Below are positions 19,102-22,740 of a DNA stretch of 34,642 nt, piece after piece (the stretch's first letter is position 1; each line of letters opens with the position of its first letter). The stretch is from positions 1 to 34,642 of the forward strand of contig JAAHHN010000052.1 of the NCBI GenBank assembly GCA_010672165.1. The letters are read 5' to 3'. A program made the translations under genes and the position numbers. Source of the DNA: Spirulina sp. SIO3F2 (GTDB taxonomy: Bacteria; Cyanobacteriota; Cyanobacteriia; Cyanobacteriales; Spirulinaceae). The notes beneath the pieces are model-generated. The model searched no databases. It was not told the DNA's origin and was given only the letters and a program-made list of their open reading frames with translations.

Positions 19102-19770
19102 ATGATGAGAGAGAATAACCTCTTAGCTTCAACTGTACTACTGATTGCATCCAGTCTAACAATTGGGAGCTTTGGTAAAGGTGAACCAGCCAAAGCTGCA
19201 GTGATCACCTTCGATGATGCGATTCGGGGGGCTAGTGAGTATCAGTTTGATGGTGATGGAGATGGTATCAATGATGTCATTTTCTCCACAGAAGATCCGT
19301 TGGGTTTTAATACTGCTGGGCCTGGCCCCAACATGAGCTTTGTGCAGGAACCAGGTCTTGAAGGGACTTCCCTGCTCAATACAGATTTACGAGTAGACTT
19401 TTTAGTGGGGGCAACGGACTACCTACAATTTGGTTTTGCTTTAAATACGGGTCGAGAATCTAACGACGTATTCTCAAATATAGAAGTATATGACAAGAAC
19501 AGTCAGCTTCTCACTTCTGTTACCGAGTTGGCGAAGTTTACTAGCCCCAATGGTTCAGGGCGAAGTTCTTTTCCGGAAGGTCTGCTTAAAGCGACTTTTC
19601 AAGGTACAGCCGCCTATGCCAAGCTCAATTTTAATAGTGACTCTAGTCGCTATATTATTGATAATTTTGAAGGCAATTTTGGTAGCACTGAGGTTCCAGA
19701 ACCGCTGGCGACGCTTGCCCTATTAGGAATTGGTGTTGTGGGGCTTAACCTCCGCCGCCGCAAGCAGTAA
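19102..19770 (+). CDS. PEP-CTERM-sorted extracellular protein
   Basis: The 222-residue protein has a signal peptide (hydrophobic STVLLIASSLTIGSF, cleavage near AKAA|VIT) and ends VPEPLATLALLGIGVVGLNL then RRRKQ. This is a complete PEP-CTERM sorting signal: VPEP, transmembrane helix, Arg-rich tail. Proteins with it are processed by exosortase and usually exported to the surface or exopolysaccharide. The mature domain is beta-rich, with an Asp-rich loop DGDGDGINDV that may bind calcium. The start could also be the second ATG at 19105. Ligand unknown. A terminator lies about 150 bases downstream. Confidence 0.88.
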   Translation: MMRENNLLASTVLLIASSLTIGSFGKGEPAKAAVITFDDAIRGASEYQFDGDGDGINDVIFSTEDPLGFNTAGPGPNMSFVQEPGLEGTSLLNTDLRVDFLVGATDYLQFGFALNTGRESNDVFSNIEVYDKNSQLLTSVTELAKFTSPNGSGRSSFPEGLLKATFQGTAAYAKLNFNSDSSRYIIDNFEGNFGSTEVPEPLATLALLGIGVVGLNLRRRKQ

Positions 19771-20378: not shown

Positions 20379-21080
20379 ATGACCACCATCCCCAAACTCT
20401 TGCTCGTTGACGATGAGCCCGGCCTGCGCGAAGCCGTGCAAGTTTACCTGGAAGACGACAACGAATTTGCCGTCACTGCCGTTGCCAGTGCTGCCGAAGC
20501 CTGGGATGCCCTGGAACGAGATAGCTTTGAGCTGGTGATCTCCGACATTATGATGCCTGAGGTGGATGGTTATCAGTTTTTAGATAAGCTGCGGGCCGAT
20601 CCCCGCTTTGGCACTGTGCCCGTGGTCTTTTTAACCGCCCGGGGTATGACCAGCGATCGCATTTTGGGCTACCAAGCGGGTTGCGATGCCTATTTGCCTA
20701 AACCTTTCGAGCCCGATGAACTGATGGCGATTGTCCGCAACTTGTTAGCTCGACGGGCAACCCCAGAATCTAGCAGTGATGACAGTGCCAAGCTCGAAGC
20801 GATCGCCCGTGAGTTGGCCACGATTAAGAGCATGTTGAACCAAAACCCCAGTGGTGGCATTAAGCCGACCGCATCCCCAATCAAAATTGATCTCACCCCC
20901 CGTGAGCAGAGTGTTTTGGATTTGGTGGCGCAGGGTCTGATGAACAAAGAAATCGCCAGCCAGCTTGAAACCAGTGTTCGCAATGTTGAGAAATATGTCA
21001 GTCGTTTGTTTAGTAAGACCGGTACTAACAGCCGCACTGAACTGGTGCGCTATGCCCTTGAATATGGCTTAACACAATGA
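20379..21080 (+). CDS. rre1: NarL/LuxR-type response regulator, Ycf29/Rre1 family
   Basis: The ATG at 20379 has GGAAG 8 bases upstream and gives 233 residues. The receiver has the acidic pair Asp11-Asp12, phosphorylation site Asp56 (VISDIMMP), Thr86 and Lys108 (PKPF). A 45-residue linker leads to a LuxR-type helix-turn-helix: LTPREQSVLDLVAQGLMNKE, then NVEKYVSRLFSKTGTNSRTE. The sequence closely fits Rre1/Ycf29, a regulator of stress responses known from cyanobacteria and red-algal plastids, usually paired with Hik34 or NblS-type kinases encoded elsewhere. No kinase gene is adjacent. DNA binding as a dimer is expected. Confidence 0.88.
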   Translation: MTTIPKLLLVDDEPGLREAVQVYLEDDNEFAVTAVASAAEAWDALERDSFELVISDIMMPEVDGYQFLDKLRADPRFGTVPVVFLTARGMTSDRILGYQAGCDAYLPKPFEPDELMAIVRNLLARRATPESSSDDSAKLEAIARELATIKSMLNQNPSGGIKPTASPIKIDLTPREQSVLDLVAQGLMNKEIASQLETSVRNVEKYVSRLFSKTGTNSRTELVRYALEYGLTQ

Positions 21081-21182: not shown

Positions 21183-21198
21183 TGTGACGCAAATCACA
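21183..21198 (+). promoter_or_regulatory. CRP-type site TGTGA-N6-TCACA
   Basis: TGTGA (21183-21187), CGCAAA, TCACA (21194-21198) is a perfect match to the CRP/SyCRP1 core. Its centre is about 62 bases before the expected start of the promoter at 21217-21246, the classical class I activator position. Confidence 0.65.
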
Positions 21199-21216
21199 GC
21201 AAAGTAAACAAGAAAC

Positions 21217-21246
21217 TTGCATTTCGCAAAAAAACTTCAGTATATT
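21217..21246 (+). promoter_or_regulatory. Promoter of the 37-residue membrane peptide gene
   Basis: TTGCAT (21217-21222) and TATATT (21241-21246) with an 18-base spacer. The start is expected near 21252-21253, leaving a leader of about 89 bases before the ATG at 21341. Confidence 0.5.
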
Positions 21247-21340
21247 AGGAGCATTCGCAATAAAAAACAAGCTGTGCAGAAATAAAAGTCAGGGATTGCA
21301 GGTCAGCGCACAGCCCCACCTATAACAAAACTTGACGATC

Positions 21341-21454
21341 ATGCAACTTAATAATCAACCCATCAAAGAATCCGTCAGTCTTGCCTTAGCTTTGACATTG
21401 ATGAGCTTGGGTATCCTCACCCTAATCTCAACCAATCTGGGCTTTATTGACTGA
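21341..21454 (+). CDS. 37-residue single-helix membrane peptide
   Basis: The open reading frame begins MQLNNQPIKESVSLALALTL and ends in STNLGFID. A polar N-terminal stretch of 12 residues is followed by one hydrophobic helix (about 13-35). It is framed by a CRP-type site, a plausible promoter and a strong terminator, which argues for a real gene. I compared it by memory with PsbX, PsbY, PsaM and the small Pet subunits and found no match. A regulatory or assembly peptide of a membrane complex is possible. No clear Shine-Dalgarno sequence (GACGATC precedes the ATG). Confidence 0.6.
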   Translation: MQLNNQPIKESVSLALALTLMSLGILTLISTNLGFID

Positions 21455-21523
21455 ACTCTGGCGAAACACGAGTTTAGCTCGACATCTTCAGCAAACATCA
21501 TTATTTCCTTTAGCGTTGCTGTC

Positions 21524-21554
21524 AGGGTAGGTAAAACACCTGCCCTATTTTTTG
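21524..21554 (+). terminator. Rho-independent terminator after the small membrane peptide gene
   Basis: AGGGTAGGT (21524-21532) pairs with ACCTGCCCT (21538-21546), with one G-U pair and loop AAAAC, followed by A and six T. It may also serve folP, which converges from the other side. Confidence 0.85.
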
Positions 21555-21570
21555 TTTTATGAGCTTTGTT

Positions 21571-22431
21571 TTATGAGCGCCAGAGGCGATCGCTCACCCG
21601 ACAAACTTGCACCATCTCAGCCACATCATGAACTCGCAGGATATCTGCACGGGTGGCGATCGCGGTAGCACAAGCGGCCGCTGTCCCCCAAACCCGCTCT
21701 TTCGGATTAGGCTGTTCCAAAATATGGCCAATAAAACTTTTACGTGAGGGGCCAATCAATAACGGTGCATTGAGGGGGTCAAATTCTCGCAGACGTCGGA
21801 GTAACTCAATATTTTGCTCGGTTGTTTTGGCAAAGCCAATGCCGGGATCAAGAATAATCCGCTCCTGTGCAATCCCTGCTTGGGCGGCTAGTTCCAGACG
21901 ATCAGCAAAAAAGGTACTGATCTCAGCAATCAGATTCTGGTAACTTGTCCGCGTCTGCATGGTGGCAGGCGTGCCTCGGATATGCATTAACACATAAGGG
22001 ACAGACAGTTGTGCCACAGTGGCATACATCTGTTCATCAAAGGTGCCCCCCGAAATATCATTGACCAGGTTTGCACCAGCCGTCACAGCAGCCCCTGCTA
22101 TCGCAGCCCGACTGGTATCAATTGAGATGGGCACATCAAAGCGCGATCGCACCGCCTGGATAATGGGAATCACCCGCGCCAGCTCTTCATCCAGGCTAAT
22201 TTGTTCTGCCCCTGGCCGCGTTGATTGGCCTCCCACATCAACAATGTCTACACCTGCGGCCACCATCCGTTCCACCTGAGCGATCGCCGCCTCAAGCTGA
22301 TTAAATTCGCCCCCATCGCTAAAGCTATCGGGCGTCACGTTGAGGATGCCCATTACATAGGTGCGTTCTCCCCAGTTAAAGGTGCGATCGCTGAGGATGA
22401 GGGGGGTGAGTTGGCGCGGATCAACAGTCAT
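21571..22431 (-). CDS. folP: Dihydropteroate synthase
   Basis: This 286-residue enzyme joins p-aminobenzoate to 6-hydroxymethyl-dihydropterin diphosphate in folate synthesis and is the sulfonamide target. Signature 1 is MGILNVTPDSFSDGG (27-41) and signature 2 is VDVGGQSTRPGA (64-75). Further conserved parts are NDISGG, the pterin-site DPGIGFAKT, GPSRKSF and the closing RVHDV. Length and all loops are normal, so it should be active. tpiA lies upstream on the same strand, about 310 bp away with repeats between, so cotranscription is uncertain. Confidence 0.97.
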   Translation of the reverse strand: MTVDPRQLTPLILSDRTFNWGERTYVMGILNVTPDSFSDGGEFNQLEAAIAQVERMVAAGVDIVDVGGQSTRPGAEQISLDEELARVIPIIQAVRSRFDVPISIDTSRAAIAGAAVTAGANLVNDISGGTFDEQMYATVAQLSVPYVLMHIRGTPATMQTRTSYQNLIAEISTFFADRLELAAQAGIAQERIILDPGIGFAKTTEQNIELLRRLREFDPLNAPLLIGPSRKSFIGHILEQPNPKERVWGTAAACATAIATRADILRVHDVAEMVQVCRVSDRLWRS

Positions 22432-22528
22432 GATTGCAACATCAGGCGAGGTTTGTCGTTTTCTTGAACATAAAGGTCAAGAAAAACGGCGTTGCATAAT
22501 TGCGAGAGGAAACCGCCCTCTTCCCCAG

Positions 22529-22581
22529 CCCTTCTCCCACTGGGAGAAGGGAGCAAGAAGCCCTCTCCCACTGGGAGAGGG
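22529..22581. repeat. Two tandem CTCCCACTGGGAG hairpins
   Basis: CCCTTCTCCCA/TGGGAGAAGGG (22529-22551) and CCCTCTCCCA/TGGGAGAGGG (22561-22581) are two near-copies of one palindrome. This is a widespread intergenic repeat type. Confidence 0.7.
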
Positions 22582-22674
22582 TTGGGTGTAGAGCTATGCT
22601 CTTCTCGAAGAGTGGGTAGCGAAAGATTCATCTTCAAAATCAGCAACGCCTCAAGAAAAACAATTGGTTATTCT

Positions 22675-22719
22675 GTAGCGCAGGCATTTTATTCGTTGCA
22701 GGCTAGAAGCCTGCGCTAC
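22675..22719. repeat. GTAGCGCAGGC palindromic repeat after tpiA
   Basis: GTAGCGCAGGC (22675-22685) and GCCTGCGCTAC (22709-22719) pair perfectly. An alternative hairpin, GCAGGCT-AGA-AGCCTGC (22699-22715), is nested in the right half. It adjoins the tpiA stop and may end its transcript, though no T tract follows on the minus strand. Confidence 0.6.
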
Positions 22720-22740
22720 GGTTGAAAGGAATTAATCAGC

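Follow-up and report, generated by a model that had tools for sequence, protein, structure and literature searches.

A Conserved Single-Helix Microprotein Gene of Cyanobacteria with a Candidate CRP Site in Spirulina sp. SIO3F2

Introduction

Time and again, cyanobacterial proteins of fewer than 50 residues have proved to serve photosynthetic and metabolic machines as subunits or as switches. The family reported here is a further one of that size, which occurs in many genera, is under clear selection and is often encoded beside a near-universal regulator. If the CRP site found at one of its loci is true, cAMP would have recruited such a microprotein in a single lineage.

Two peptides of Synechocystis PCC 6803 invite comparison. 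SliP4/HliR1 has 37 residues, as has the peptide of our locus, and was likewise missed by annotation; in the available part of the source it is described as high-light-induced and RpaB-controlled, and as helping NDH-1 to associate with photosystems (PMC12850537). One membrane helix is predicted for both peptides, according to the text available for SliP4/HliR1 (PMC5126843). Norf4, in the same partial text, resembles our family with 31 residues, one membrane helix and wide conservation in cyanobacteria (PMC5126843). On the regulatory side, cAMP-dependent binding to the E. coli CRP consensus has been reported for the CRP protein SyCRP1 (PMC4284465, available sections).

Results and Discussion

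The window, i.e. the whole stretch of 34,642 nucleotides from Spirulina sp. SIO3F2 that was analysed, carries the features collected in Table 1. A preliminary description had read a palindrome, two promoter hexamers, a short ORF and a terminator hairpin as a CRP-controlled mini-operon for a membrane peptide. All of these parts were recovered where it had placed them. The term mini-operon was overstated, as the transcription unit consists of one gene. The terminator hairpin has a folding energy of -15.9 kcal/mol (z -3.0), which 2 of 200 shuffles also reached. No clear Shine-Dalgarno sequence was found ahead of the 37-codon ORF and no NtcA site (GTAN8TAC) in the intergenic region around it. The direct repeat that flanks the -10-like element may be the site of a second regulator or a chance feature of AT-rich DNA.

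Table 1. Features at the microprotein locus (window positions).
Feature	Position	Strand	Remarks
NarL/LuxR-type response regulator gene	20379..21080	+	Pfam Response_reg + GerE; probably rre1/ycf29 (putative name)
Perfect CRP-type palindrome TGTGACGCAAATCACA, TGTGA-N6-TCACA	21183..21198	+	Read from sequence, motif scan
Weak -35-like element TTGCAT	21217..21222	+	3/6 matches to TTGACA; read from sequence
Direct repeat TTCGCAA(A/T)AAAA	21223..21265	+	Copies 21223-21234 and 21254-21265, spacing 31; flanks -10 element
-10-like element TATATT	21241..21246	+	5/6 matches; 18 bases after TTGCAT; predicted transcription start near 21252-21253
Putative untranslated leader, about 88 bases	21253..21340	+	Start predicted; fold z -0.54
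37-codon single-helix membrane microprotein gene (MQLNNQPIKESVSLALALTLMSLGILTLISTNLGFID)	21341..21454	+	ATG at 21341, stop ends 21454
Intrinsic terminator, 9-pair hairpin 21524-21546, then T-run ATTTTTTG	21524..21556	+	Terminator scan, folding
Convergent dihydropteroate synthase gene folP	21571..22431	-	Pfam Pterin_bind

A search of 292 genomes with the peptide alone returned weak matches (best E 0.005); the single-sequence comparison with the member from genome G159 gave 50% identity at E 0.005. Three of these weak matches (G159, G116 and G172) proved to lie near the same NarL-type regulator gene, and therefore a profile approach was taken in which the syntenic peptides were aligned. Of the weak matches, one from a genome of the same taxonomic family starts about 250 bases downstream of this regulator gene, and two (L006 and L010) lie near it. 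Profile A2 (E<=1e-3) detected the family in 78 of the 388 class genomes, the window's own included, some of the matched genomes also supplying rows to that profile. Of the 13 genomes of the taxonomic family, 10 matched profile A3 (E<=0.1); a single genus accounts for the three that did not. The window peptide scored E 7.2e-11 against A2 and 4.6e-10 against A3, both of which contain it as a row. A narrower scan of named genomes (A4), which is blind to members without an HLGQS-type pattern, the window's own among them, yielded 43 pattern stretches. Of these, 19 were confirmed, all titled cyanobacterial, with loci from Argonema, Trichocoleus, Oculatella, Phormidesmis and three Leptolyngbyaceae included.

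Altogether 89 distinct members were collected, 88 of them called with an ATG start. Their length is 31-52 residues as called; for L184, L186 and L187, called at 51-52 residues, the true start probably lies further in. The collection takes in G174, which at E 0.0019 with A2 stands outside the 78, together with G385, G371 and the members of the taxonomic family, while G339 and G387 were left out. L206 is without a peptide; L143, with fewer than 200 bases upstream, was left out of the upstream-site scan. The entry L199 duplicates G116: it was omitted from the linkage, residue-conservation and frame-control counts and counted in the upstream-site scan and the hydropathy test. Among the matches listed, each genome holds one confident match.

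Pfam and NCBIfam scans of the members gave no fitting family. Matches to TarH, TMEM72, HTH_IclR, DUF3149, VirB8, srtB_target and entericidin A were at chance level and were rejected. The literature searched on cyanobacterial small proteins was not found to describe the family, which may be annotated or described outside these sources; no name for it was found in the libraries and papers searched.

Evidence for a protein-coding gene came from 20 close pairs in which each locus was used once. Pooled values were pS 0.41 and pN 0.065, corresponding to a dN/dS of about 0.11. Three pairs of unequal length were left out of the frame control; in the 17 equal-length pairs the true frame gave pS 0.40 and pN 0.065, compared with pS/pN of 0.12/0.14 and 0.07/0.16 in the two wrong frames. 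These substitution patterns are strong evidence that purifying selection acts on the microprotein in its true frame. Conservation of the frame in many genera, together with the selection on it, puts the ORF far beyond chance. Judged by these comparisons, it is a genuine gene below the usual annotation size and a divergent member of its family. The small membrane-peptide gene of the preliminary description is strongly supported: the frame is conserved, selection on it is purifying, and each collected member has a hydrophobic helix.

In a 19-residue hydropathy test for a membrane helix all 90 entries passed (89 members, one genome twice). Positive charge is higher on the N-side than on the C-side of the helix in 71 of the 90 entries, which by the positive-inside rule, established for the orientation of membrane proteins, suggests a cytoplasmic N-terminus. 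AlphaFold2, run on a 48-row alignment (A6), predicted one helix over residues 8-35 with a mean pLDDT of 80 and a pTM of 0.41; block pLDDT values of 91 and 93 were reached in the middle of the helix. In window numbering the conserved core comprises L8 (77/89), G9 (84/89), Q or E at 10 (82/89) and S11 (85/89), and a conserved helix face is formed by S or C at 22 (88/89) and a small residue at 24 (92%). The window peptide has S22 and G24 of this face. In place of L-G-(Q/E)-S it reads I-K-E-S: E and S are kept, L is replaced by I, and position 9 is K where G is nearly invariant in the family.

The coding match of the window regulator ends 263 bases upstream of the microprotein gene on the same strand. 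The same regulator gene lies within 3.2 kb of the microprotein gene in 33 of the 89 members, upstream on the same strand in 22 (window included) and downstream on the opposite strand in 11. Opposite the microprotein gene, 42/89 members carry a PHP-domain gene in convergent orientation (the one examined is PF02811), the place taken by folP in the window. Regulator, PHP gene or both are present in 52 members, and neither was seen in the examined stretch of the other 37, some of which lie near contig ends. In 11 members (L121, L128, L147, L175, L179-L183, L191 and L193) the peptide gene is followed first by the convergent PHP gene and then by the regulator gene, which shares the strand of the PHP gene; this is a variant layout of the gene trio. 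At the locus L117 (G159) a gene on the opposite strand, whose product looks by eye like an OmpR-type response regulator, separates the regulator and peptide genes.

The regulator occurs in 369 of 388 class genomes (E<=1e-60) and, with one exception, is single-copy among the genomes listed. The portions available of PMC9321951 and PMC2677595 report that Rre1 is conserved in every cyanobacterium sequenced and that Ycf29, its plastid homologue, is NarL-like. The neighbouring regulator is probably Rre1/Ycf29, since its Response_reg and GerE domains and its near-universal occurrence in the class fit this description.

Two further observations concern the surroundings in the window. Positions 19102-19770 hold a 222-residue ORF with a PEP-CTERM-like C-terminal tail (VPEPLATLALLGIGVVGLNLRRRKQ). 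Between folP and a gene reading by eye as triosephosphate isomerase lies repeat-like DNA (22430-22740), perhaps a dispersed repeat, with PLGEG or SPTGRG translations in several frames.

We now turn to the palindrome. With the predicted start its centre would lie at about -62. Class I CRP promoters have the centre of their site at about -61.5, or at -71.5 or -81.5, from the mapped start. The perfect palindrome and its predicted distance would fit the class I geometry proposed earlier, but TTGCAT makes a poor -35 element. A consensus promoter scan does not report the TTGCAT-N18-TATATT promoter, and two other TATAAT-like hexamers (5/6 matches) occur within the same 260 bases. By our own arithmetic the odds of a perfect palindrome in these 260 bases are about 2e-4; over the whole genome, however, roughly one coincidence of this kind is to be expected. 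Across the window, sites with up to two mismatches show no excess (19 compared with 16.4 in shuffles).

In the relatives the site is not retained. The upstream-site scan covered 89 stretches of 350 bases each, with the window's own included and one genome represented twice. Not one of the 87 relatives, taken irrespective of CRP presence, has a perfect CRP site in these 350 bases. The CRP site as a conserved family feature was rejected, the window's own being the sole perfect one in the 89 stretches. Among the relatives L194 alone has a one-mismatch site, compared with three such hits of the reversed pattern that served as control; at two mismatches the 89 stretches show a mild excess over the control (20 versus 8). 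The preliminary description named as its refutation a frame unconserved in relatives with the site lost, and half of this is seen: the relatives keep the frame and lack the perfect site. Cyanobacterial CRP targets are predicted to be largely species-specific in the available text of PMC2633013; because of the strong differences between species predicted there, a lineage-specific site would not be strange. Going by these alignments and scans, the microprotein gene is of general occurrence, whereas the CRP site, provided that it is real, belongs to this lineage in particular.

The source genome contains HTH_Crp_2 matches in four places. The first is NtcA, above the curated cut-off. The second, L208, has a PRST motif and the recognition helix RETVTR, which we take to indicate cyclic-nucleotide binding and a canonical CRP recognition helix, respectively. 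Its score against the NCBIfam CRP model, 76.7 bits, is well below the curated cut-off of 266; its alignment with solved Crp-family proteins extends along the length of the protein and places RETVTR opposite their RETV. The third match has a degenerate recognition helix, and the fourth reads by eye as a GntR-like regulator. The class III nucleotide cyclase domain gave 49 matches, 19 of them over 200 bits, and 17-42 matches in each of the 12 other genomes of the taxonomic family. The cyclic-nucleotide signalling repertoire of the source genome is rich.

Throughout the 7.3-Mb genome the perfect palindrome occurs six times, compared with two occurrences of the reversed control pattern; with up to one mismatch allowed, the numbers are 202 and 97. 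All six perfect sites are intergenic at a coding density of 0.76 (chance about 2e-4, our own arithmetic), if L225, which runs into the very end of a called ORF, is counted as intergenic; one of the perfect control sites is intergenic and one coding (n=2). For the intergenic test a gene caller of our own making was applied to 46 of the 202 sites, namely the 6 perfect ones and 40 more, and to 40 of the 97 controls; the choice mostly followed the order of the list and was not random. The one-mismatch sites show no intergenic enrichment (14/40 compared with 16/40 control sites), and a regulon read from them is unsupported, as their intergenic share is no higher than that of the control.

CRP control, as claimed in the preliminary description, is plausible but unproven: the CRP gene, the cyclases and the intergenic perfect sites speak for it, the unconserved site, the unenriched one-mismatch sites and the weak -35 element against it. 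From the sequence evidence we rate candidate CRP control of the microprotein gene as somewhat better than even. For this one lineage a CRP-controlled unit is a reasonable hypothesis, which rests on one perfect site and its geometry.

Frame, conservation, purifying selection, hydrophobic helix and frequent linkage to the regulator are computed results. The explanation towards which we lean, with modest conviction, is that of a single-pass membrane microprotein that docks on a larger membrane partner and in this organism would be under cAMP-CRP control. Transcription would start from the gene's own promoter near 21252, and the hairpin would end it near 21550. The N-terminus, which is short, mostly positive and bears the L-G-(Q/E)-S motif, would stay cytoplasmic. 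The helix would use its small-residue face (S/C22 and the small residue at 24) to pack onto a larger membrane protein, which the microprotein would serve as accessory subunit or as regulator. Docking in an accessory or regulatory role is favoured because strict small-residue positions within membrane helices are usually sites of helix-helix packing. The promoter would, in this lineage, have gained a CRP site at about -62, through which cAMP-CRP would switch the gene on in class I fashion.

A serious competitor, to which we give roughly one chance in three, accepts the gene as real and takes the palindrome for a chance match within an ordinary or otherwise regulated promoter, as in the relatives; the neighbouring regulator or a light/redox regulator are examples of possible controllers. 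The lack of a perfect site in all 87 other members fits this explanation, as do the small genome-wide number of perfect sites (6 compared with 2 in the control), the one-mismatch sites unenriched between genes and the weak -35 element. It is less at ease with the intergenic position of all six perfect palindromes, with a distance of about -62 from the start set by the TATATT box, which suits class I geometry, and with a genome that encodes a suitable CRP and many cyclase domains. The missing conservation is itself a weak argument for chance, given the species-specific CRP targets predicted in the accessible text of PMC2633013.

The function of the transcript and its product can also be read differently. 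Very improbable in our estimate is a mainly regulatory or dual-function RNA with the peptide being secondary. The unit would be short, about 300 bases, and separately terminated, and a dual role has been proposed for the small-ORF transcript norf4 (PMC5126843, available text), but the frame-specific dN/dS of about 0.11 over 20 pairs indicates selection on the protein, the leader folds no better than shuffles (z -0.54) and lacks a stable structure, and at gathering thresholds Rfam finds a tRNA as its sole match across the window. We give as little credence to a type I toxin-like membrane peptide. Type I toxins are generally small with a single hydrophobic helix, which the microprotein resembles in both respects; the single confident match per genome among the matches listed, the often conserved chromosomal place beside a near-universal regulator gene and the purifying selection on the peptide argue against this assignment, and no antisense antitoxin RNA came to light in these general analyses. 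Improbable, if less so, is a family acting as membrane-side partner of the Rre1 (Ycf29) redox/stress pathway, into which the new CRP promoter would here wire cAMP; the connector proteins MgrB and SafA serve as the model for this proposal.

Comparison with Known Systems

The likeness of SliP4/HliR1 to our microprotein does not extend to distribution and gene context. In the available text of PMC5126843, SliP4/HliR1 has no homologues beyond Synechocystis and lies upstream of sodB, unlike this family; the window microprotein has the regulator gene and folP as neighbours. Hand translation of the primers printed in the part of the source at hand gave SliP4/HliR1 ends that look by eye unlike the family, and SliP4/HliR1 was rejected as a relative. 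The Norf4 transcript overlaps gap1 on the other strand according to the same partial source, whereas our family is often found beside NarL-type regulator and PHP genes. Norf4 was likewise rejected as a relative, since its N-terminus, hand-translated from the primer printed there, differs.

PDB chains compared with the nine-row profile A1 gave no match at E<=5. This result argues against a known small subunit of photosystems, cytochrome b6f or NDH-1 only if the strains used for the structures carry the gene. The subunits NdhP, NdhQ, PsbX and PetL of NDH-1, photosystem and cytochrome b6f complexes are like the family in size, in their single helix and in their occurrence in photosynthetic organisms.

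For the regulation, the SyCRP1 and AnCRPA regulons provide the comparison. The SyCRP1 and AnCRPA targets given in the article text available, supplementary tables aside, name no microprotein of this family. With our locus and its genome these systems share the consensus TGTGAN6TCACA and a CRP that carries the cAMP-binding and recognition-helix motifs (PMC2633013, PMC4284465, available text).
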